A stretch of 64,000 bases of DNA from Candidatus Zixiibacteriota bacterium (GTDB lineage: Bacteria; RBG-13-66-14; B26-G2; WVWN01). The translations under genes and the position numbers were made by a program. The first letter of the stretch is position 1. Every line of letters starts with the position of its first letter. The stretch lies in contig JAUWLW010000010.1 of NCBI GenBank assembly GCA_030613505.1, positions 1 to 64,000 of the forward strand, in the 5' to 3' direction. Shown piece by piece: positions 4,107-43,690 of this stretch. Below the pieces are notes generated by a model. It worked only from the letters and a program-made list of their open reading frames with translations. It was not told where the DNA came from and searched no databases.

Positions 4107-6548
4107 TTATCTAACTACCGCCACTTTTCCGAAACGCCGCTCCCCGTCGGGGCCCTCGACCACGAAGAGGTAGACGCCCGAGGCCGCGGCGCCGCCTCCC
4201 GCCGTAACGAGAGGCCACTCCGCGACGCCGGACGCGTCGGCCGCCGTCGCCCATACCTTCGCACCGGCGAGGTCGTAGAGCACGAGCGAGCTCCCGGCGG
4301 CCAGGTTTCCGAAGCGGACGCGGTCGTGCCCGGCCGACGGCTTCGCCGGGTTGGGGTACGCTACGACCGCCGACGAGGGTTCGGGCCCGCCGCGGGTCCC
4401 GGCCAGCACCGCGGCCACGGCGAGATTTACCCTGGTTACGTCGGCGCCGAACGCCGGCGTGAGATACTTCGGCAGGTCTTTCGTCGTATGGTACCAGGGG
4501 TAGAACTCTTTGCCGGCGTACTCGATAGATAGCAGCGCCGGGTAGCCGAACTCCCAGAACGGCTCGTGGTCGCTGCCGCCGCGGCCCTCCGTCGTCGGGT
4601 AAACGACGTACGTCGGCACGTACAACCGCGCCACGTCCTGATACGCCGTCAGGAGCTCTTTCGAAAAGTCGTTGTACCGAACCTCGACGTCGTGAACGGG
4701 CTGGTCGAGGTACGATATCATATCCATATTGAAGACGCCGCGGATATCCGCCCCGGCCTCGTACTCCTCGCGGGCGTACGCCCGGGAGCCCAGCAGGCCC
4801 TCTTCCTCGCCCGAAAAAGCCAGGAATTTGACCGTACTATCGAAACGGCGGTCGGCAAGGACCGCGGCCGCCTCGAGCAACGCGGCCACGCCGGAGGCGT
4901 TGTCTTCCGCGCCGGGCGCCCGGTTCCAGGGGTCTTCCGATATGGCGTCGTAGTGGCCGCACAACACGTACACCTCGTCGGGCCGGGCAACGCCCTTTTT
5001 CACGGCCTCCACGTTGTGCCATATGACGGGCCGGGCGTTTTTTACCTCGACTTTCTTCCAATGCTCGCCGCCGTCGGTGGTGTGAAGAACGACCGACGGG
5101 CCGCCGACGATCCACGCCTCGTCGCGGCTGACGGCCGATATGCCGTTGTAGCAATGGTACTCGCCGAAAGGCGTCCGCTGGCGCTTCCAGCTCGCGCCGG
5201 CGTCGTCGGTGCGGTAAACCTTGCCGTTGTCGCCGGCGGCCCATCCCCGCGTAGCGTCGGCGAAGACGACCTCGGTGAAGAAGGGCCACGCCGGGAAATA
5301 GCCCGATACGCGCCGCCACGTCTCGCCCGCGTCCTTCGAATAGAGGATAGTCCCCTCGTTGCCGACCATCACGGCGTGCGTCGCGTCCGCGAACGCCATC
5401 CGCCGCATGCCGAAGCCCTCGGTCTGGGGCACGTTCACGGCCTTCCAGCTGGCGCCGCCGTCGTACGAGCGCATCACCAACCCTTCCATCCCGAGGGCCC
5501 ACCACTTATCCGCCGTCTGCGCGTATACGCCGAGGACCAACTTCTTCGTCGGCGTCGCCACCTTGCGCCACGTCGCGCCGCCGTCAACGGTGCGGTACAT
5601 CGCGCCGCGGTCACCGCCGGCTACGCCCACCGTCGCGCCGAAGAAATAGACGTCGCGCAAATAGTCGGCCGGGTTCTCCAGCGGGAGCTGGGCCCAGGTC
5701 CGGCCGCCGTCGTCGGTCCGCGCCAGGAAACCTCGGCCGCCGACGACGAACCCCGTACGGTCGGTTACGAAGTAGCCGTGGTCCAGCCGCCCTTCCGACT
5801 TATGATAGGTCCAACTCTGGCCGTAGTCGTCGGTCCGCCATACGTACCCCCACGACGAAATCAGCCACCCCAACCTGCCGCCGGCGCGAAAGACGCAGTC
5901 CCCCAGGTAGTCGTTGGCCATCGGCTCGTACTCGTACGGCCGGCGCGCGGTTTCGTAACCCAGCTCCTTGAAATGCTCCTCGATATAAGCGGTGGCCTCG
6001 GCTATCTCGTCGGCGTGGGAATAACGCGTCGTTATAGCCGCGAGCTTTTCTATATGGCCGAAGTAGCGGTCGGCGCGGACCCGCGCGACCAGCTGCGCTA
6101 CCGCCGAGTCGTACGACACCTCGGGTAGTACAAATTTCCGCGGCGCCTTAAGCGGTTCGCCGCCTACGCGCTTGATTTCGGCGCCCAGCGTCGCCAGCTT
6201 CTCCGCCGCCGCGGCGTCGCCGCTGACGACGTACGTTTCGCCGAAGCGGGCGAGGACCGTTACGCCGACGACGCGGGGCAACTCGGCCCCCGGGCGGGGC
6301 CAGGCCAGGTAAACGGGCCCGGGCGGCGAACCCAAGTCCACGTAACTATACCGATCGAGGACGCCCAAGGTATGGGGCGCCGCGAGCGCGAGCGCGAAAT
6401 CCGGCCGCGCTTCGACGACGGCGACGCCTTCGGCCAGCAGCGCGTACGCGTCCGCCGGCCGCTCGAGCTCGACGGCGACGAGGGTGGGACCGGCGAAGGC
6501 CGCGCCGGCGGCCGCCGAAATAATCGCCACGATAATCGCTCTTCGCAT
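4107..6548 (-). CDS. Secreted M28 metallopeptidase with inserted beta-propeller and sorting-like C-terminal domain
   Basis: An 813-residue exported protein with a signal peptide at 1-20. M28 aminopeptidase elements flank a central block at about 225-520 of six or seven BNR/YCF48-type repeats (recurrent DDGG.TW, D.GASW). Zinc-site residues of M28 are visible after the block: GHYDA, GAEDNASG, SGEEEGLLGS, MDMIS and GGSDHEP. The last 80 residues (YPNPAKP ... GVYLFVV ... GKVAVVR) resemble FlgD-Ig/T9SS-type C-terminal domains used for secretion or anchoring. No T9SS machinery gene is in the window. The propeller insertion between the N-terminal peptidase segment and the catalytic core is unusual. 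The substrate is probably extracellular peptide. Confidence 0.88.
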   Translation of the reverse strand: MRRAIIVAIISAAAGAAFAGPTLVAVELERPADAYALLAEGVAVVEARPDFALALAAPHTLGVLDRYSYVDLGSPPGPVYLAWPRPGAELPRVVGVTVLARFGETYVVSGDAAAAEKLATLGAEIKRVGGEPLKAPRKFVLPEVSYDSAVAQLVARVRADRYFGHIEKLAAITTRYSHADEIAEATAYIEEHFKELGYETARRPYEYEPMANDYLGDCVFRAGGRLGWLISSWGYVWRTDDYGQSWTYHKSEGRLDHGYFVTDRTGFVVGGRGFLARTDDGGRTWAQLPLENPADYLRDVYFFGATVGVAGGDRGAMYRTVDGGATWRKVATPTKKLVLGVYAQTADKWWALGMEGLVMRSYDGGASWKAVNVPQTEGFGMRRMAFADATHAVMVGNEGTILYSKDAGETWRRVSGYFPAWPFFTEVVFADATRGWAAGDNGKVYRTDDAGASWKRQRTPFGEYHCYNGISAVSRDEAWIVGGPSVVLHTTDGGEHWKKVEVKNARPVIWHNVEAVKKGVARPDEVYVLCGHYDAISEDPWNRAPGAEDNASGVAALLEAAAVLADRRFDSTVKFLAFSGEEEGLLGSRAYAREEYEAGADIRGVFNMDMISYLDQPVHDVEVRYNDFSKELLTAYQDVARLYVPTYVVYPTTEGRGGSDHEPFWEFGYPALLSIEYAGKEFYPWYHTTKDLPKYLTPAFGADVTRVNLAVAAVLAGTRGGPEPSSAVVAYPNPAKPSAGHDRVRFGNLAAGSSLVLYDLAGAKVWATAADASGVAEWPLVTAGGGAAASGVYLFVVEGPDGERRFGKVAVVR

Positions 6549-12872: not shown

Positions 12873-13544
12873 CTATTGGTTGTAATACATCGCCTTTATT
12901 CTACCCCAGGCGTTTCCCTCGGTATTGGCGGCCGGGGATTCGCGGGGGCTGTTAATATTTTGAGGTTGAGGTTTGGCGCGTTCGCGGAAATCGGTCAGGT
13001 TATCGCCGGTGTCGTACGAGTTCCCGTTGACTTCATTGTGGGTCGGGCCGGATTTGCGCTCCAAGCCGTGGCCGGGGCTCACGCCCGGATACTGCGTGCC
13101 CTCGTAATAGGGCCAGCGCACCGGCCCCCAACCGACGGCGTCCCGTTTCTGGCCGCTGGCGTGCTCGAGTATAATGCCGCCCTCGCCCTTCATAAAATCC
13201 ATCGAGAGATCACAATAGAAGTCGGGCTTATAGGAGTACTTCGACCAAGCGTCCCGGTCCTGCTCCCGGCCTATGAGGTAAAAACCGTGATTCGGGATTA
13301 CGACCTTCTCCTGGCCTTTTTCCAACGCAACCCTTTCGAGGCCGCGCTTGGAAGCGATGCGTACCCGCCACTCGCTAAGGTCGACGTTGGTCTTGGCGGC
13401 GTTATAGAGCTCTATAAACGGCGGCGGCGAGCTTGCGTCGGGGTCGTACAAGACTTCGGATATAAAAATCTTGTCCGCCGGGTCGGCCGCAAAGCTAACG
13501 CCGACAAGCAGCACGCATACTAGTATGTACGCCGATACCCGCAA
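12873..13544 (-). CDS. Secreted lamin-tail-domain (LTD) protein with tag-like C-terminus
   Basis: A 223-residue exported protein: signal peptide 1-19 (cleavage near SFA-AD), then an LTD domain marked by IFISEVLYDP, PPFIELYNA, DLSEWRVR and the HGFYLIG strand. LTD domains are extracellular beta-sandwiches whose function is poorly known. The tail after a Pro/Asn-rich linker ends WGRIKAMYYNQ, resembling the GRVKAL(F/Y)R tag of the secreted proteins at 30.7-36.2 kb. It has its own terminator and appears monocistronic. Confidence 0.85.
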   Translation of the reverse strand: MRVSAYILVCVLLVGVSFAADPADKIFISEVLYDPDASSPPPFIELYNAAKTNVDLSEWRVRIASKRGLERVALEKGQEKVVIPNHGFYLIGREQDRDAWSKYSYKPDFYCDLSMDFMKGEGGIILEHASGQKRDAVGWGPVRWPYYEGTQYPGVSPGHGLERKSGPTHNEVNGNSYDTGDNLTDFRERAKPQPQNINSPRESPAANTEGNAWGRIKAMYYNQ

Positions 13545-30691: not shown

Positions 30692-31429
30692 TTACCTAAA
30701 CAACGCCTTCACGCGGCCGAGGGAGGCGGGGAAAACGGCGGTATCTGAACGCCAATAGAAGTAATAATGGTCCGTCGCGTCGTCCACGATGTATAAGTGC
30801 CAATCGTAAGGCGGCAACGTACCCCATGTATAACTTAACCCCACCGGCGTTTGGAGGCCGGTGATGACCGGAACGCCGTCCTCATATACCGTACGGGTCC
30901 CGGAATCCGAAACGTAAAAATGGGCGTAGCCGCCGCAACCGACAGGCCGCCGCCCCGGGCCGGCGTACGTACCGATAAGGGACCCCGTCGTATAGTTTAA
31001 AACGGCGACAATATTCCGGTCCGGAATCGCGACTATGAAACCGGGCCACGCGAATTCGCAATCGGCAGGTCCGGTAAAGGGGCAGCGGAAAGAATTAACT
31101 ACCGACCCTTGGGTCGTCGTTTCGTATATCCACGACGTCCGGTTGTTGGTAACGAAAAAACCGCCGCCCGGTTCTTTTGCTATCCCCCACGCCCCCGGCC
31201 CGCCAGGCGCCGGGAAACTAGAAAGGATAGAGCTCTCCTCCCACCAATAATGATAAATGCGCGGATTAGCGCCATCCATAACGATATAACCTGCGGCGGG
31301 ACCGCCGCCCCAATAGCCCCGCGGATTAGGGCCGGGCGTGGGGTACGAGGCGATCAACTTCCACTCATCTGCGATAGCCGCGACCCCAGTATAAAAAATT
31401 ACCGACGCCAGTATAAATAACCTCTTCAT
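30692..31429 (-). CDS. Secreted propeller-like protein with SLGRVKALFR tag
   Basis: A 245-residue exported protein: signal peptide 1-20, then repeated short beta segments rich in Trp, Tyr and Gly (GAWGIAKEPGGGFFVTNN; GPADCEFAWPG; GGYAHFYVSDSG; PVGLSYTWG), suggesting a six-bladed NHL/SMP30-like propeller. The C-terminus reads PASLGRVKALFR, the tag found on the neighbouring secreted proteins. It is preceded by a small secreted protein gene with 4 bases between. No catalytic residues are recognisable. Confidence 0.78.
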   Translation of the reverse strand: MKRLFILASVIFYTGVAAIADEWKLIASYPTPGPNPRGYWGGGPAAGYIVMDGANPRIYHYWWEESSILSSFPAPGGPGAWGIAKEPGGGFFVTNNRTSWIYETTTQGSVVNSFRCPFTGPADCEFAWPGFIVAIPDRNIVAVLNYTTGSLIGTYAGPGRRPVGCGGYAHFYVSDSGTRTVYEDGVPVITGLQTPVGLSYTWGTLPPYDWHLYIVDDATDHYYFYWRSDTAVFPASLGRVKALFR

Positions 31430-31433
31430 CGGT

Positions 31434-31655
31434 TTAATCGCCGCCTATGGCTACGTTATCCTTGGTGGCCGGCTTGTAGTCATGCTTGGTGGCCGTGAGT
31501 TTGCCGTCGGAGAAGTCGTGCAAGAGGTCCTTAAATTTCAGTTTGCCATTGTAGCTGTCGCGGGAGCCCCAATGGCCCTCATAGACCCAATCGCCGAAGA
31601 CATAAACGGCCGCCAGCGCCAGCGCCGCGGCCGCAATCGTCGTTACCTTCTTCAT
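31434..31655 (-). CDS. Small secreted protein (73 aa), unknown
   Basis: ATG 31655 has AGGAGGT well placed upstream. The first 20 residues form a signal peptide (KKVTTIAAAALALAAVYVFG). The mature part is polar, with Lys, Asp and His, and has no cysteine or recognised motif. It lacks the C-terminal tag of its neighbours. It overlaps functionally only by position: its stop is 4 bases before the tagged propeller gene, so the two are probably one transcript. Confidence 0.65.
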   Translation of the reverse strand: MKKVTTIAAAALALAAVYVFGDWVYEGHWGSRDSYNGKLKFKDLLHDFSDGKLTATKHDYKPATKDNVAIGGD

Positions 31656-31750
31656 TTCGCCAGACCTCCTCTGCTATTATCCCTTACCCTAAACTATAGC
31701 ACGGCGCTTTTCACAACTCCACTAAAAAGGACATATCTTTAAACGGCTAA

Positions 31751-31855
31751 GGTGGGCGCACCTAAAGGTACGGCCCTACGACAAGGGGCGTTAACCGGCG
31801 GTTTTAACCGCCGGGTTGCCCCTTGCCCAAGCCGGGCGACTAGCCAGTCGCCCCT
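31751..31855. repeat. Interspersed repeat and compound palindrome, copy 2
   Basis: Bases 31751-31780 match 11348-11377 at 27 of 30. They are followed by nested palindromes: CAAGGGGC/GCCCCTTG enclosing CCGGCGG/CCGCCGG, then GGGCGACT/AGTCGCCC ending in CCCCTACTT. This is the same family as 11432-11492. It fills the spacer between the small secreted protein and the HAD gene. Confidence 0.7.
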
Positions 31856-32576
31856 ACTTAAAGGCGCTTCCGACCAACGGCACCACGTCACGCACGTCGG
31901 CCACCTCGTAGTCGGCCTCGGCCTCGGCGGCCCACCGCGCCACCTCCGGGCCGTCCCGCCGGACCCATACGGTCCTGAGTCCCGCTTTACGCGCGGTGAT
32001 GACGTCCTCCACCGGCGAGTCGCCCACGTACAGGACCCGGGCCGGCGGAAGGCCCGCCGTCGCGCATATCTTCTCGTAGATAGCGACGTCCGGCTTGAAG
32101 ACGCCCATCTCCTCGGCGACCGCGACCCATCGGAAGTACTTCTCCCAGCCCAGCCGGGCGATCTTGGGCCGCTGGATGTCGGTGAAGCCGTTGGTGAGGA
32201 GGCCGAGGGGGAGGAGCGGCTCGAGCGCCGCGAGCGTCTCCTCGGCTCCCGGCAGCGGGTAGCTGAGGGTCAAGTAGATATCGAGATATTCGCGCCCCAA
32301 GGCCGCGGCGTCGGCCGGCGGCGCCGCACCCACCAGCGCGAAGAGCTCGGCGAACCGCCGCCCGCGGAGGCTCGTCACGTCGATCTCGCCGGTGGCGAGC
32401 TTCAGCCACATACGCTGGTTGACGTCGAAGAAGAGGCGGGCGAATTCGTCGACCGTCGTCCCGGTATCGGCCACGCGGTGGCGCCGGTATACCTCCGCCA
32501 GCGCCTCGCGCGCGGCGCGGCGATGGTCGTACAGCGTATTGTCGAGGTCGAAGAAAACCGCCGCGGGCTTCTCCAA
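31854..32576 (-). CDS. HAD-superfamily hydrolase (YjjG-like)
   Basis: A 240-residue HAD phosphatase. Motif I is FFDLDNTLYDH, motif II LLTNG, motif III includes KPDVAIYEKI, and motif IV is YVGDSPVEDV. The C1 cap and spacing match the YjjG/HAD-IA pyrimidine nucleotidase group. The frame extends to TTG 32621, but TTG 32576 has AAAGGA 7 bases upstream and gives the usual short lead before motif I, so I prefer it. It lies 51 bases downstream of the tagged trio and may share their transcript. The substrate is unproven. Confidence 0.88.
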   Translation of the reverse strand: MEKPAAVFFDLDNTLYDHRRAAREALAEVYRRHRVADTGTTVDEFARLFFDVNQRMWLKLATGEIDVTSLRGRRFAELFALVGAAPPADAAALGREYLDIYLTLSYPLPGAEETLAALEPLLPLGLLTNGFTDIQRPKIARLGWEKYFRWVAVAEEMGVFKPDVAIYEKICATAGLPPARVLYVGDSPVEDVITARKAGLRTVWVRRDGPEVARWAAEAEADYEVADVRDVVPLVGSAFK

Positions 32577-32627
32577 AGAGTAATTCCTTTCGCGCCGGCC
32601 GGCTGCGGCCGGAGGTCGCAACCGGAC

Positions 32628-33254
32628 CTAGCGATATAGCGCCTTGACGCGCCCGAAGGACGCCGGCGTTACGGCCGGGTAGAAGCCGAAACTGATCCGC
32701 GCGTTGTATCCCCACTCGCCCACCGTTCCCGTCGCGGCCCGGTAGTCGTACGCGACGCAATGGTGCGCCGATAGTTTGCCCGTCAAAACGAGGACTTTAC
32801 CTCCCGTCCCCGACTCCCACGTTATTTCCAAAATCAAGTTCTCGCGGTTGTTGTACTCGAACGTCTCCGCCATCGGGATGGGATAGACGCCCTGGATTTC
32901 CGGTAATTCGTAGCTCGAGAAGCTCGCGACCAGCTTGGGCGTATTGCCGCCGTAGTTGGAGGCGAAATCCGCGGTCAAGGCCGCGAGCGGCGTATGGCAA
33001 AGGTAAAATTTGACGTTCCGGAAGGTGGCCGTCGTCTCGTTCTTCTCCAGCTCGAACTCGTTAATAGTCCCCGCGTAATCTATGCGGCTCTGGTCGAACA
33101 GCATCTGCATCCGCAACGCCGGCCGCCACGCCACCCAGGGATGGTCGCTCGGCTCGCCGCCGACGTGAACGTAGACCTGTTTGCCCGTCGCGGCCGCCGC
33201 GGCAACGACGGCCAAAGACGCGACGACGCCGAAGAAAACAGCTCGCCTTACCAT
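32628..33254 (-). CDS. Tagged secreted protein, paralogue A
   Basis: A 208-residue exported protein starting at ATG 33254, which has GAGGAGGT upstream; the longer frame to 33278 adds residues before the signal peptide. The body shares with its two upstream paralogues MLFDxxxIxYAGT, EFELEK, FRNVKFYLCHT, NYGGNTPKLVASF, YPIPMAETF, YNN-NL and H-x-C-x-A-x-D. Two conserved cysteines suggest a disulfide. Predicted all-beta. It ends PASFGRVKALYR. Function unknown; a surface or extracellular role is inferred. Confidence 0.85.
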   Translation of the reverse strand: MVRRAVFFGVVASLAVVAAAAATGKQVYVHVGGEPSDHPWVAWRPALRMQMLFDQSRIDYAGTINEFELEKNETTATFRNVKFYLCHTPLAALTADFASNYGGNTPKLVASFSSYELPEIQGVYPIPMAETFEYNNRENLILEITWESGTGGKVLVLTGKLSAHHCVAYDYRAATGTVGEWGYNARISFGFYPAVTPASFGRVKALYR

Positions 33255-33289
33255 CCCGACCTCCTCGGTCAAAGTCACGGTACGTCGGC

Positions 33290-33910
33290 TCAGCGGTAGA
33301 GCGCCTTGACGCGGCCGAAGGACGCCGGCTCAATCCCCTTGTAGGTGTCGAAGGAAATGCGGGCGTTTAATCCCACGTTCGCGACGGTCCCGATCGTAGC
33401 CTTCGCGTCGTGAGCGTAACAGACGTGCGCCGTTACCGTACCCGATAACAACGTCACCTTTTGCCGGCCGCCCGTCTCCCACGTTACCTCTAAAATGAGA
33501 TTATCGCGGTTGTTGTAATCGAACGTCTCCGCCATCGGGATGGGATAAACGCCCTCGACCGCGGGCAACTTGTAGGTCGAAAAGCTCGCCACCAGTTTGG
33601 GCGTATTGCCGCCGTAGTTGGCGTTGAAATCCGTTACCAGCGCCGAGAGCGGCGTGTGACACAGGTAGAACTTGACGTTGCCGTACTCGCCCACGTAGAC
33701 TTGTTTCTCCAATTCGAACTCGGTGATCGTCCCGGCGTAGTCGATCTTGTCCCGGTCGAACAGCATCTGACACCGCATGCCTTCGTTGGGAGAGTACCAA
33801 GGGTAGATGGAACCCGAGCTGCCGTTTAAGATATAAACGGCGTGGCCCGTGGCGAAAGCCGAACCCGCGCAAAGCGCCGCGGCCGCAAACGATAAAATTA
33901 TCGTTCTCAT
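33290..33910 (-). CDS. Tagged secreted protein, paralogue B
   Basis: A 206-residue member of the trio. The signal peptide ends near AFA-TG and a GAGGAGG Shine-Dalgarno precedes ATG 33910. The shared core is clear: MLFDRDKIDYAGTITEFELE, KFYLCHTPLSALVTDF, NYGGNTPKLVASFSTY, GVYPIPMAETFDYNN. The second conserved cysteine is in AHVCYAHDAKA. It ends PASFGRVKALYR, identical to paralogue A over the last twelve residues. Its gene is 34 bases from the next paralogue, so the three form one operon. Confidence 0.86.
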   Translation of the reverse strand: MRTIILSFAAAALCAGSAFATGHAVYILNGSSGSIYPWYSPNEGMRCQMLFDRDKIDYAGTITEFELEKQVYVGEYGNVKFYLCHTPLSALVTDFNANYGGNTPKLVASFSTYKLPAVEGVYPIPMAETFDYNNRDNLILEVTWETGGRQKVTLLSGTVTAHVCYAHDAKATIGTVANVGLNARISFDTYKGIEPASFGRVKALYR

Positions 33911-33944
33911 GCGCGAACCTCCTCTCTCGAAAAAGCGCTCCCTG

Positions 33945-34589
33945 CTACCGAAACAAAGCCTTAAGGCGGCCGAACGACGCCGGCGCGACGCCCGGGTACT
34001 TGTCGAAGACGATCAAGCCGTTATAGGCGAGCTTGCTCACCTGGCCGGTCGTGGCCCGGTAGTCCCAGGCGAAGCACCGATGGCCGTCGATGGGCCCGCT
34101 CCTTAAGCGGCACATCGTGTTGCTGAGGTCCGACGATTCCCACGTGACCTCGAAGAGGAGGTTGTCGACGTTGTTGTAAGCGAACGTCTCGGCCATCGGA
34201 ATAGGGTACGGCCCCACCACCGCCGGCAACGTGTAGCTCGCGAAGCTGGCTACCATCTTGGGCGTATTATTGTCGTAGTTGGCCTGGAAGCTCGTCGTAA
34301 ACGACGAAAGGCCCGTGTGACACAGGTAGAACTTAACGTTCTTAAACGTTGACGAAACGGCGTCGGACTTCTCCAACTTGAACTCGGTGACGGTCCCGGC
34401 GTAGGCGATGTATGCCTGGTCGAAAAGCATCTGGCAACGCGTGCTGAGTAGCGTGGGATGCGCCCACCACGGGATGGCGTTCATACCCTCGCCGTACTTG
34501 ACGTAAACCTCGTGGCCGGTGGCGAACGCGGCCGGCGCCCAAGCAAGACAAACCGCTAACGCGGCCACCTTCACAACGTAGATCCTCAT
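33945..34589 (-). CDS. Tagged secreted protein, paralogue C
   Basis: A 214-residue first gene of the trio. The signal peptide is 1-23 (cleavage near AFA-TG). It keeps the core MLFDQAYIAYAGTVTEFKLE, KFYLCHTGLSSFTTSF, NNTPKMVASF, GPYPIPMAETF and HRCFAWDYRA. It ends PASFGRLKALFR. It diverges somewhat more than A and B do from each other. A strong promoter lies about 70 bases upstream. Nothing enzymatic is recognisable. Confidence 0.86.
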   Translation of the reverse strand: MRIYVVKVAALAVCLAWAPAAFATGHEVYVKYGEGMNAIPWWAHPTLLSTRCQMLFDQAYIAYAGTVTEFKLEKSDAVSSTFKNVKFYLCHTGLSSFTTSFQANYDNNTPKMVASFASYTLPAVVGPYPIPMAETFAYNNVDNLLFEVTWESSDLSNTMCRLRSGPIDGHRCFAWDYRATTGQVSKLAYNGLIVFDKYPGVAPASFGRLKALFR

Positions 34590-34657
34590 ACCTCACCTCC
34601 GTTCTCCTGTTAGCGCTCGTCGGCGGCGATTGCCGCAACGCGAACCCGAACCATCTC

Positions 34658-34686
34658 AATATATCAGAGCCGCCGCCCTAAGTCAA
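34658..34686 (-). promoter_or_regulatory. Sigma-70 promoter of the tagged trio operon
   Basis: On the minus strand TTGACT (34681-34686), 17 bases and TATATT (34658-34663). It is divergent from the plus-strand promoter at 34745-34773. Confidence 0.75.
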
Positions 34687-34744
34687 ATTCCTTAGACATG
34701 GGCCGACGGCGCCGCTCGGGACCCCACACGGCCCGAGTAGCTTT

Positions 34745-34773
34745 TTGACGAAACGACGTTTTAATGTCATAAT
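34745..34773 (+). promoter_or_regulatory. Sigma-70 promoter of an unassigned plus-strand unit
   Basis: TTGACG (34745-34750), exactly 17 bases and CATAAT (34768-34773). It points into a region with no recognised plus-strand gene. Confidence 0.6.
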
Positions 34774-34778
34774 CATAT

Positions 34779-35017
34779 AGGAGTTTGCGAGAGCCGACGT
34801 TAAACGATTCCGGCCCGAGCAGCGACTAAATAATGATGAAAGAGAACAATACGCGACGGAGCCCGGCCAGGTCTCCGTGATAAAATTGGCCGGCCGCGTA
34901 CGGCGCCTGACGGTGGTGGAAGACAGCGCGGACGCCGCAAAACGCGAAACCGGCCAATCGGTTTAATCAACTTCTTAGCGTACCCGCGGGCCCCTTCCGG
35001 GGCCCGTTTCTTTTTTC
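34779..35017 (+). ncRNA. Possible small RNA or small-ORF transcript
   Basis: A unit of about 238 bases framed by a good promoter and a strong terminator, in the otherwise gene-free stretch 34590-34974. The sequence can fold: CGGAG/CTCCG around 34859-34879 and AAACCG/CGGTTT around 34948-34965. It also holds a stop-free frame ending at TAA just after the second hairpin, with high-GC third positions only in its second half; the only usable start there is GTG in VIKLAGRVRRLTVVEDSADA. A 15-codon ORF starts ATGATG and ends overlapping that GTG. It matches no RNA family I recognise. Confidence 0.4.
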
Positions 35018-35703
35018 CGGAGTTCGGCCAGCAACCCCCTAATTTCGCGAAGGGTAGTAAAAATATGCGTCGGCGACACCGTCGAGCGGCCGTGTTCCCG
35101 CGGCAGGTGCCGCACGCCGCGCTCGAGCACCGATACGCCGGCGCGCTTGAGCTTTACCATAAGTTCCGTGTCTATGAAAAATTTATCCGAATGGAGCGCC
35201 AGCGCCTGGAGCTCGCGCCGCGGGAGGAATTTGAACGAGCAGTCGACGTCGCGGACCTTCAGGCCGAAGAGAACGCGGACCAGCAAATTATAGCCCCGGG
35301 AGACGAAGCGGCGAAGGGCGCCCTCCGCGCGGCCCACGCGGTACCCGACGACCGCGTTTCCGCCGTCGAGCAAAGGCAAAAAGGCGAGCATCTCGCCGAG
35401 GTCGAATTGGCCGTCGGCGTCGGTGTAGAAGACGTAATCCTCGGCCGCGGCGGCGAAGGCGTCGCGCAGGCTCTTGCCGTAGCCTTCGTTGTTTCGGTGC
35501 GTCACGACGCGGAGGGACGCTATTTCGCCGCCGAGGCGCTCGAGGAACTGCGGCGTTTCGTCGCTCGAGCCGTCGTCGACGATAATTATCTCGTGGTCGA
35601 CGCCGGCGCTCCCGAGCGTCTCGTCGAACGCGCGGACGACGCCCTCGATATTCCCGGCTTCGTTGAACGCCGGCGCGCAGACGCTAATGGAGTAGGCCGC
35701 CAC
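34975..35703 (-). CDS. GT2 glycosyltransferase (dolichyl-phosphate sugar synthase-like)
   Basis: A 242-residue GT-A enzyme. The N-terminus SVCAPAFNEAGNIEGVV, the nucleotide-binding EIIIVDDGSSDET and the metal-binding YTDADGQFDLGEM are typical of GT2 enzymes such as polyprenyl-phosphate mannose/glucose synthases. No C-terminal membrane anchor is present. It probably makes a lipid-linked sugar of the kind the GT-C proteins at 17-21 kb would use; that link is inference. Its last codons overlap a plus-strand terminator. Confidence 0.9.
   Translation of the reverse strand: MAAYSISVCAPAFNEAGNIEGVVRAFDETLGSAGVDHEIIIVDDGSSDETPQFLERLGGEIASLRVVTHRNNEGYGKSLRDAFAAAAEDYVFYTDADGQFDLGEMLAFLPLLDGGNAVVGYRVGRAEGALRRFVSRGYNLLVRVLFGLKVRDVDCSFKFLPRRELQALALHSDKFFIDTELMVKLKRAGVSVLERGVRHLPREHGRSTVSPTHIFTTLREIRGLLAELRKKETGPGRGPRVR
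34986..35017 (+). terminator. Strong plus-strand terminator
   Basis: The 8-bp stem CGGGCCCC/GGGGCCCG with a TTCC loop (34987-35006) is followed by TTTCTTTTTT. It lies inside the 3' end of the convergent GT2 gene and would end the plus-strand unit at 34779. Confidence 0.8.
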
Positions 35704-35761
35704 GCCGCCACTATAAGAATAAACGCGGCCGGCCGCAACCCCAAACGCCGGGCACCGCGGC

Positions 35762-35790
35762 TTGACTTATTATGATATTTCGGCTAATAT
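35762..35790 (+). promoter_or_regulatory. Sigma-70 promoter of the cupredoxin gene
   Basis: TTGACT (35762-35767), 17 bases and TAATAT (35785-35790). The gene starts 21 bases further with AAAGGAGGT. Confidence 0.75.
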
Positions 35791-35811
35791 ATAGATAAAG
35801 GAGGTTAGATT

Positions 35812-36168
35812 ATGAAAAGGTGCGTGTTTTTAACGGCGGCCTTACTGGCGTGCGGCGTAGCGGCGCTCGCGCTAACCGAAATCAAAATACAGAATTTCGC
35901 CTTCGTACCCCAAAACGTAGTAGTCCAGAAGGGCGAAATGGTCCAGTGGACCAACCTCGACGCGGTGGTCCATACGTCGACTTCCAACACGCTCGTCTGG
36001 GACTCCGGCGACATCAAACCGAACGAGTCCTACAAGCGCAAATTCAACAAGACCGGTTTCTTCCCCTACTATTGCAAATACCACACGCAAATGAAGGGGA
36101 CGGTGCGCGTAACGGAGACGGCCGTAGCGCCGACTTCTTTCGGCCGCGTCAGAGCGCTGTTCCGGTAA
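35812..36168 (+). CDS. Secreted cupredoxin with SFGRVRALFR tag
   Basis: A 118-residue type-1 copper protein of plastocyanin/amicyanin type. Signal peptide 1-21. Ligands visible: His54 (VVHTS), Cys88, His91 and Met94 (YYCKYHTQM). After the last beta strand (GTVRVTE) comes a short linker and PTSFGRVRALFR, absent from ordinary cupredoxins of this size and nearly identical to the tag of the neighbouring secreted proteins. Likely a periplasmic or surface electron carrier. Own promoter, Shine-Dalgarno and terminator, so monocistronic. Confidence 0.93.
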   Translation: MKRCVFLTAALLACGVAALALTEIKIQNFAFVPQNVVVQKGEMVQWTNLDAVVHTSTSNTLVWDSGDIKPNESYKRKFNKTGFFPYYCKYHTQMKGTVRVTETAVAPTSFGRVRALFR

Positions 36169-42230: not shown

Positions 42231-42890
42231 CTAGTCCTCGACGGTAGCCGGCGCTTCCCCCGAGCCGCCGACCGTAAGGACCCGGACGCGCTCGATGACG
42301 TCGCCCTGTTCGATGGCGTCGACGACGTCCATACCGGTCACGACGACGCCGAAGACGCAGAAGTCGGGGTCGAGGCGAAGCGCATCCGATTTCAGAATAA
42401 AGAACTGCGTCGGGCTCGTATCGCCGTAAATCATTTCACCCGTGTTCTCGTCGCGCTTCGCCAGCCGGGCCATAGACACCGCGCCGCGCACGCATTTGCG
42501 TACGTCGGGTTCTGTCTCAAGGGATATGTCCGGGTTCTCCCGGCCCACCAGCGTCGCGTCGCCGGCCTGAACGACGAAGTCCGGAACGACGCGGTGGAAG
42601 ACGATGCCGTCGTAAAAACCATCCTCGACGAGGGCGATGAAGTTACCCGCCGTCTTGGGCGTCTCGTCCACCAGGAGTTGTACCTCGACGGCCCCGCCGT
42701 CGGTTAGCTCCATCACGGCGACCTTCGTCCCGGCCGGAAGCTCCCGCGCCGCGGCGGAGAGCTCGAGCGGCATCTCTTCCTCCTCGAATCGCACGGCCAC
42801 GGCGTCTTCGCCGTACACTTCGACCGCAGCGAACGCCAGGGCGGGCGCAAGCACGGCAGCCGCCGCGCCCAGATAAAAAAGAATTCTCAT
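42231..42890 (-). CDS. Periplasmic cyclophilin-type peptidyl-prolyl isomerase
   Basis: A 219-residue exported cyclophilin. ATG 42890 has AAGGAG 8 bases upstream; the frame reaches further to 42908 but that start precedes the signal peptide. Signal peptide 1-22. Catalytic core: TAGNFIALVEDGFYDGIVFHRVVPDFVVQAGD, split over the canonical FHRV and QAGD motifs, then GAVSMAR and SPTQFFIL. It speeds proline isomerisation during envelope protein folding. A lipoprotein paralogue follows 128 bases upstream on the same strand. Confidence 0.93.
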   Translation of the reverse strand: MRILFYLGAAAAVLAPALAFAAVEVYGEDAVAVRFEEEEMPLELSAAARELPAGTKVAVMELTDGGAVEVQLLVDETPKTAGNFIALVEDGFYDGIVFHRVVPDFVVQAGDATLVGRENPDISLETEPDVRKCVRGAVSMARLAKRDENTGEMIYGDTSPTQFFILKSDALRLDPDFCVFGVVVTGMDVVDAIEQGDVIERVRVLTVGGSGEAPATVED

Positions 42891-43018
42891 CGTCTTACTC
42901 CTTACCATTTAGGATGCGTTTTTTACGAAAACAACACAATCCCAAAAAGGGTGCCTTGCCCACCGTCGAATTCGAAACCCGCCTCGCAGCGGGTTCGGCA
43001 TTAGGCCGGCGCGGCCGC

Positions 43019-43690
43019 CTATTCCGTCTCGGCCGCGGCCTCCTCGGCGGGTAGTCCCTCGCCGACCTTCAATACGCGTATGCGCTTTATCACGTCGTCC
43101 TTCTGGGTATTATCCACGACGTCCATACCGGTAACCACTATGCCGAAGACGCAGAAGTCCGGGTCGAGGTGGAGCGAGTCGCCGGTGAGGATGAAGAACT
43201 GCGTCGGGCTCGTAGCGCCGTACTCCGTCGAGCCTGGAACTGCGGCGCGGGCCATAGATACCGCGCCCCGTATACACTTACGCTTGTCGGGCTCGGCCGA
43301 GATCACTATCTCCGGGTTCTCACGCCCCACGAGCGTCGCGTCGCCCGCTTGCGCCACGAAACCGCGTTCGACGCGGTGGAAGGGAATGCCGTCGTAGAAC
43401 CGGTCTTCGACCAGCTTGATGAAGTTGCCCGCCGTCTTGGGGGTCTCTTTGGTCAGAAGCTCGATCTCGATTACGCCTTCCTCGGTCTCTATCACCGCCA
43501 CCTCCGCCCCGGGCGGGAGCTTCTGCGCTTCCGCGGACAACGTGAGGGGCGTTTCCGGCGCTTCGACGGCCGCGACGGTCTCGGCGGTCTCGGCCGTCGC
43601 CGGCTCCTCGACTTTCTTCCGACATCCCGCAAAAGCCGCCGCCAACACTATAACAATCGCGGCCAAGACAACGTAGTTAAAATACTTCAT
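43019..43690 (-). CDS. Lipoprotein cyclophilin-type peptidyl-prolyl isomerase
   Basis: A 223-residue paralogue of the 42231 cyclophilin. The lipobox FAGC places the acylated cysteine at about residue 22. The catalytic motifs are the same (FYDGIPFHRVE, QAGDATLVGRENPE, GAVSMARA, SPTQFFIL). One paralogue is thus lipid-anchored and the other soluble or differently retained. It has AGGAGG upstream and its own promoter, 128 bases before the second gene, so the two could be one unit. Confidence 0.93.
   Translation of the reverse strand: MKYFNYVVLAAIVIVLAAAFAGCRKKVEEPATAETAETVAAVEAPETPLTLSAEAQKLPPGAEVAVIETEEGVIEIELLTKETPKTAGNFIKLVEDRFYDGIPFHRVERGFVAQAGDATLVGRENPEIVISAEPDKRKCIRGAVSMARAAVPGSTEYGATSPTQFFILTGDSLHLDPDFCVFGIVVTGMDVVDNTQKDDVIKRIRVLKVGEGLPAEEAAAETE

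Follow-up and report, generated by a model that had tools for sequence, protein, structure and literature searches.

What could make several exported proteins with different bodies end in almost the same dozen residues? The question is raised by a 64,000-nucleotide stretch of DNA, here called the window (positions 1 to 64,000 of contig JAUWLW010000010.1, assembly GCA_030613505.1), from a 2.86 Mb genome placed in Candidatus Coatesbacteria. Five genes of the window, at 30692, 32628, 33290, 33945 and 35812, carry such a C-terminal tail, referred to below as the tag, which an earlier sequence-only reading had proposed as a sorting or anchoring signal. Our analysis suggests that the last ten residues may serve Sec-exported proteins as a C-terminal peptide for sorting or docking, similar to a minimal signal of the type IX secretion system (T9SS); we assign this reading, in which we infer the receptor step, a probability of about 45%. 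It is very probable that the tail is genuinely a recognition peptide, and selection acts on it at the level of the peptide.

Results

Tagged genes in the window

The five genes had been described as ending in nearly the same 12 residues, and in each of them the tail indeed forms the exact C-terminus of the reading frame (12 residues). The tagged genes and their tags, with the looser relative at 12873, are as follows.

30692 to 31429, minus strand: tagged exported protein of 245 amino acids (aa), signal peptide, body without a Pfam match
30692 to 30730, minus strand: tag PASLGRVKALFR plus stop, C-terminal end of the 30692 gene
32628 to 33278, minus strand: tagged exported protein of a three-member beta family, likely start at 33254 giving 208 aa
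32628 to 32666, minus strand: tag PASFGRVKALYR plus stop, C-terminal end of the 32628 gene
33290 to 33910, minus strand: beta-family member of 206 aa, tagged and exported (signal peptide, family comparison)
33290 to 33328, minus strand: tag PASFGRVKALYR plus stop, C-terminal end of the 33290 gene
33945 to 34589, minus strand: beta-family member of 214 aa, tagged and exported (signal peptide, family comparison)
33945 to 33983, minus strand: tag PASFGRLKALFR plus stop, C-terminal end of the 33945 gene
35812 to 36168, plus strand: tagged exported cupredoxin of 118 aa (PF13473/PF00127, signal peptide)
36130 to 36168, plus strand: tag PTSFGRVRALFR plus stop, C-terminal end of the 35812 gene
12873 to 13544, minus strand: Lamin Tail Domain (LTD) protein (PF00932, E 4e-12) with the looser W-form tag AWGRIKAMYY-NQ

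A crude test agrees with the claim that all five proteins start with a signal-peptide-like N-terminus, the better start of the 32628 gene being internal. As for the bodies, the proteins at 32628, 33290 and 33945 do form a single family (55-59% identical) and that at 35812 is a cupredoxin, the sole Pfam body among the five, whereas the protein at 30692, which had been called propeller-like, gave no match in a Pfam search. The LTD protein at 12873 ends in WGRIKAMYYNQ as reported, two residues beyond the tag core. The degenerate DNA pattern GR[VIL][KR]A[LM][FY]R-stop picks out exactly the five tags from the window; none of 100 dinucleotide-shuffled copies contains a match.

The tag across the genome

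In the genome as a whole this strict pattern has 59 matches and its reversed form none, and a relaxed pattern (S/T-x-G-x-[VIL]-x-A-x-[FY]-x-stop) has 153 against 0 for the control. The shuffles and the reversed-pattern controls reject a chance origin. From the stretches fetched around the tags we recovered 100 non-redundant tagged proteins. A crude heuristic finds a signal peptide in 90 of these, compared with 117 of the 288 untagged open reading frames (ORFs) of at least 100 aa in the same DNA (p = 3e-19); the ten that failed include several truncated or short frames and at least one true signal peptide that the heuristic overlooked. A membrane-like helix after the signal peptide occurs in one of the 100, and a tighter peptide motif is found 94 times at a stop codon versus twice internally.

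The bodies fall into 16 to 18 clusters, the number being set by the choice of linkage. The largest comprises 55 proteins, NHL-repeat propellers among them; other tagged bodies include cupredoxin, LTD and MAM-like ones, and most of the remaining families have no Pfam match. Tagged paralogues also stand in tandem arrays, the longest with six or more in a row (L260, G000:C12; L261, G000:C13; L051, G000:C10; L264, G000:C30). Tags at L033:1005-1031, L036:2848-2874 and L036:11500-11526 have no intact exported frame upstream and probably mark decayed genes or frameshifts.

Selection on the peptide

The region shared between bodies is confined to the last 10-14 residues. The last ten have the layout [S/T]-[W/L/V/F/I]-G-x-[V/I/L]-[K/R]-A-[L/M/x]-[F/Y]-[R/K or other]-COOH, common to 61 distinct tag peptides. 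Among the 100 tagged proteins, conservation extends beyond the pattern to V at -14 (84%), P at -12 (96%), S at -10 (97%) and L at -3 (89%), and the last residue is usually R or K; the search patterns themselves demanded G at -8 and A at -4, while S at -10 and P at -12 were free or partly free. Over 12 residues the tails of unrelated bodies are on average 68% identical, versus 7.5% for untagged exported proteins, although part of the 68% is imposed, since the tagged set was chosen by pattern, and the unconstrained positions are the fairer evidence.

The DNA beneath these peptides is far more varied: 125 tag sites correspond to 120 distinct 30-base sequences, and the DNA downstream is mostly unrelated. 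The commonest peptide, SLGRVKALFR, is present in 24 copies that are encoded by 22 different DNA sequences, which argues for selection on the peptide and not on the DNA. The suspicion that the tail is selected independently of the body is borne out by this variation and by the unrelated bodies.

Distribution in other genomes and phyla

Three further species of the window's genus have 53-64 strict matches each, and the relaxed pattern is present in all 14 Coatesbacteria genomes searched (1-159 matches each, with 0-2 control matches). The last residue depends on the lineage and may be R, K, H, N, Q or E, with Y also accepted at the end. Across phyla the tag takes the form [ST]-[WLVF]-G-x-[VIL]-K-A-x-[FY]-[RK]-stop. 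When 84,980 named genomes were scanned with the pattern [ST]-[W/L/F]-G-x-[VIL]-K-A-x-[FY]-R-stop, at least 118 stretches matched; among the matches listed, nearly all came from Eisenbacteria, Krumholzibacteriia, Coatesbacteria, Ignavibacteria, Zixibacteria, Calditrichia and related or unnamed metagenome-assembled genomes, and one was a clear chance match, in Pantoea, with TGG where the stop is expected. Complete ORFs among these matches number 73, and 69 of them have a signal peptide, with no membrane helix and six lipoboxes among the 69. In Eisenbacteria, the phylum of G020, strict W-form tags occur in 32 of 47 genomes, at most nine per genome, with no control matches. One short tagged protein (L067, in G005) has a CxxCH-like motif (FSCNTCHK) after its signal peptide and is possibly a small haem protein.

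The tag is thus not confined to one locus and its paralogues, being present on 16 to 18 body families in the genome, throughout the phylum and in further phyla, nor is it equally frequent on cytoplasmic proteins, given the signal peptides on 90 of 100 tagged versus 117 of 288 untagged proteins and on 69 of 73 elsewhere. The support that the sequence-only reading had expected is also seen, namely dozens of C-terminal matches on exported proteins with varied domains and a co-occurring translocon (SprA, PorV).

The tag and the T9SS signal

In the Ignavibacteria-containing phylum, exactly one strict match is found in 62 of 396 genomes and two in none. All 62 single-copy tags read TWGS[IL]KA[LMI]FR (TWGSIKA[LMI]FR or TWGSLKAMFR), and the eight loci that were read all encode the same exported protein of about 145 aa, with a fibronectin type III (fn3) fold and the end TWGSIKALFR. 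Eleven relatives of this protein have bodies 29-51% identical to the reference, and the tail residues W, G, I, K, A, F and R are invariant in them. Its AlphaFold model is a beta-sandwich of the fn3 fold with a predicted local distance difference test score (pLDDT) above 90 for the body and an unordered tail with a pLDDT of about 55; a second structure model was poor (mean pLDDT 43). A profile of the fn3 protein matches fn3-like domains elsewhere (43 in G025, 26 in G026, 21 in G036 and nine in the window's own genome), and in all 11 readable loci a classical T9SS C-terminal domain (CTD) with NPxNP-like and GxYxY motifs directly follows the domain. The short tail therefore takes the position of the CTD: behind the fn3 domain, the tag occupies the T9SS CTD slot. 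The neighbours of the single-copy gene are housekeeping genes, for example maf or mutS2-like ones, none of them conserved as a partner, and the gene neighbourhood was rejected as a guide to a receptor.

Markers of the T9SS were found in most genomes with the tag. SprA_N is present in 25 of 28 tag genomes, and PorV-family proteins and TIGR04183 domains are present in all 28, against none of 14 control genomes for SprA_N and at most one over the cut-off for PorV and TIGR04183. The window's own genome encodes one SprA-like ORF (SprA_N E 1.3e-8, 1958 aa), together with 10 matches to the PorV family and 50 to the CTD. SprA, PorV and type A CTD matches are widespread in Coatesbacteria, Eisenbacteria, Krumholzibacteria and Zixibacteria (G000-G038, G433-G477). 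The T9SS has been called restricted to Bacteroidota (PMC4793230, PMC10202324), and the wide occurrence of its markers outside that phylum bears on such claims.

The five tagged proteins of the window gave no match to TIGR04183 (E <= 1). In the DNA fetched from this genome, the CTD-type proteins are a separate set of nine and no tagged protein has a CTD, as judged by the C-terminal motif; no CTD-bearing homologues of tagged bodies were present in the DNA examined, which was fetched around tags. The window itself holds an untagged contrast.

4107 to 6548, minus strand: M28 peptidase with a weak type A CTD (TIGR04183 E 5.5e-4, 19.9 bits, below the 23-bit cut-off)

This peptidase has Ycf48/sortilin-like repeats and has the look of T9SS-type cargo beside the tagged genes.

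Discussion

In the reading that we favour, a tagged protein would be exported via Sec with its N-terminal signal peptide, and its free tail would then be bound by a dedicated receptor in the envelope. The tail would be a minimal substitute for the T9SS signal of about 75 residues, and the receptor would pass the protein to a PorV-like outer-membrane carrier or to the SprA translocon, so that it could be displayed on the surface or released. The computed support consists of the signal peptides, the extreme C-terminal position of the tail in hundreds of proteins whose bodies are unrelated, selection on the peptide, the T9SS-bearing diderm phyla and the CTD slot. That the extreme C-terminus can carry information follows from published results on RgpB, whose export is blocked by the loss of two C-terminal residues, and on HBP35, whose last 22 residues suffice (PMC11285876).

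Several observations weigh against this interpretation. The known T9SS signals have at least 43 residues (PMC11969387, PMC10202324). In the Eisenbacteria sample 28 of the 32 genomes with the tag have SprA, as do 11 of the 15 without it (Fisher p = 0.25), so that the T9SS does not predict the tag there and may be a background condition that leaves the distribution of the tag unexplained. No SprA match was obtained in four tagged genomes from the same sample or in G003, G005 and G037, which their draft state or divergence of SprA could explain. Some genomes combine a single tagged protein with more than 60 classical CTD cargoes, and a general sorting role is not obvious in them. Finally, neither gene neighbourhood nor SprA co-occurrence pointed to a receptor for the tag. 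The original proposal of a sorting or anchoring signal thus holds as regards exported proteins, the C-terminal position, varied bodies and the presence of SprA and PorV; the sorting itself we infer, with no receptor found and SprA not discriminating.

Comparison with known C-terminal signals points in both directions. The T9SS type A CTD (TIGR04183/PF18962) likewise lies at the extreme C-terminus of Sec-exported proteins with varied bodies, in the same phyla, with a basic end and in the same slot behind the same fn3-like domain, but it has about 70-75 residues, a GxYxY motif and a beta-sandwich, whereas the tag has 10-14 residues and neither of these. Judged as type A cargo, whose secretion requires SprA and PorV and whose signal PorU removes, tagged proteins have the Sec signal peptide (90 of 100, by the crude test) and their own genome has SprA and PorV, but the TIGR04183 match is lacking. 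The short CTDs of Prevotella intermedia (43-55 aa, PMC11969387) resemble the tag as shortened signals coexisting with long ones in one genome; they have motifs B, D and E and three beta-strands (PMC11969387), however, while the tag is four times shorter and has none of these. T9SS type B and type C CTDs are similarly alternative C-terminal signals of one secretion system (PMC10202324), although they comprise about 100 residues and type B is read by PorP/SprF-like carriers (PMC10202324). PEP-CTERM, GlyGly-CTERM and LPXTG signals share with the tag a short C-terminal homology region on many exported proteins per genome, but they combine a membrane helix with a basic cluster and a paired peptidase. 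The helix counts (one of 100 in the own genome, none of 69 elsewhere) uphold the earlier view that the tag, having no membrane helix, is unlike them.

The tail could instead be held by a periplasmic, outer-membrane or surface scaffold, for retention or assembly independent of the T9SS and without passage through SprA, an explanation that is possible though somewhat doubtful. It fits the similar presence of SprA in tagged and untagged genomes, the single, hardly varying tagged protein in each tag genome of the Ignavibacteria-containing phylum, which looks like one protein with one partner and not like a cargo class, and the lipobox in six of 69 tagged proteins, which could mean that these are already membrane-anchored. 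Such docking is harder to square with a tail that follows the same fn3 domain at the place of the T9SS signal, with the roughly 60-150 tagged proteins of many bodies in other lineages, which do resemble a cargo class, and with PorV and T9SS cargo in every tag genome tested.

We consider it unlikely that the tag is recognized by a periplasmic protease, chaperone or quality-control factor. A free C-terminus on exported proteins, with the tail unpacked against the body in the AlphaFold model, would suit such a factor, but a permanent turnover tag on about 6% of the proteome would presumably be wasteful. Very unlikely is nonspecific membrane binding by a cationic, amphipathic tail. Basic and hydrophobic residues do alternate and R or K is mostly last, but the nearly invariant P at -12 (96%) and S at -10 (97%) were free or partly free in the pattern, 61 distinct peptides keep one layout, and E, N, H, Q or Y is accepted at the end in some lineages. 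The helical moment of the tails is also no higher than that of shuffled tails, and on this ground an amphipathic helix was rejected as the form of the tail; a strand-type moment was higher in four of five tails.

An artefact of repeat DNA or recent duplication, in which a mobile palindromic element or expanding paralogues carried the tail, is hardly credible. In its favour are a linked propeller cluster that takes in 55 of the 100 tagged proteins, the tandem arrays and the palindrome GGGCGTACAGCTGTACGCCC that follows two tags and one tag relic; against it stand 120 distinct DNA sequences among 125 tags, mostly unrelated downstream DNA and unrelated tagged bodies in other phyla, and the synonymous variation of the tags refutes repeat DNA as a general cause. 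The relic (L036:15926-15952, in G000:C68) lies in another frame just past the stop of a T9SS-type CTD gene; it is a local oddity and possibly reflects signal exchange by recombination.

With a sorting or docking peptide as the preferred reading, a wider proposal can be made, quite tentatively: a ten-residue C-terminal export signal with its own receptor may be ancestral to several diderm phyla, standing beside or replacing the T9SS CTD, and kept on one conserved protein in the Ignavibacteria-type lineage, whereas in Coatesbacteria, Eisenbacteria and Krumholzibacteria it expanded to a large class of cargo. C-terminal sorting signals are already known; what is new is one so short, without a membrane helix and in several phyla. 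Six exact tag strings were nowhere printed in the open-access papers examined (subscription journals lie outside this scope), and no Pfam or NCBIfam family is reported for the tail, a ten-residue motif being below the detection of such searches. If correct, the proposal would define a new class of address label that needs far fewer residues than known type IX signals and lacks the membrane helix found in sortase-type ones, and would give a simple sequence rule to predict exported surface proteins in several uncultured phyla. Should a cultured relative possess the single-copy fn3 protein, whose tail hardly varies, the question of the receptor could be put to the test there.

Two adjoining, signal-peptide-like proline isomerases of the cyclophilin type are also encoded in the window, at 42231-42908 and 43019-43690; a proline isomerase subunit is part of the T9SS translocon of F. 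johnsoniae (PMC10994853).

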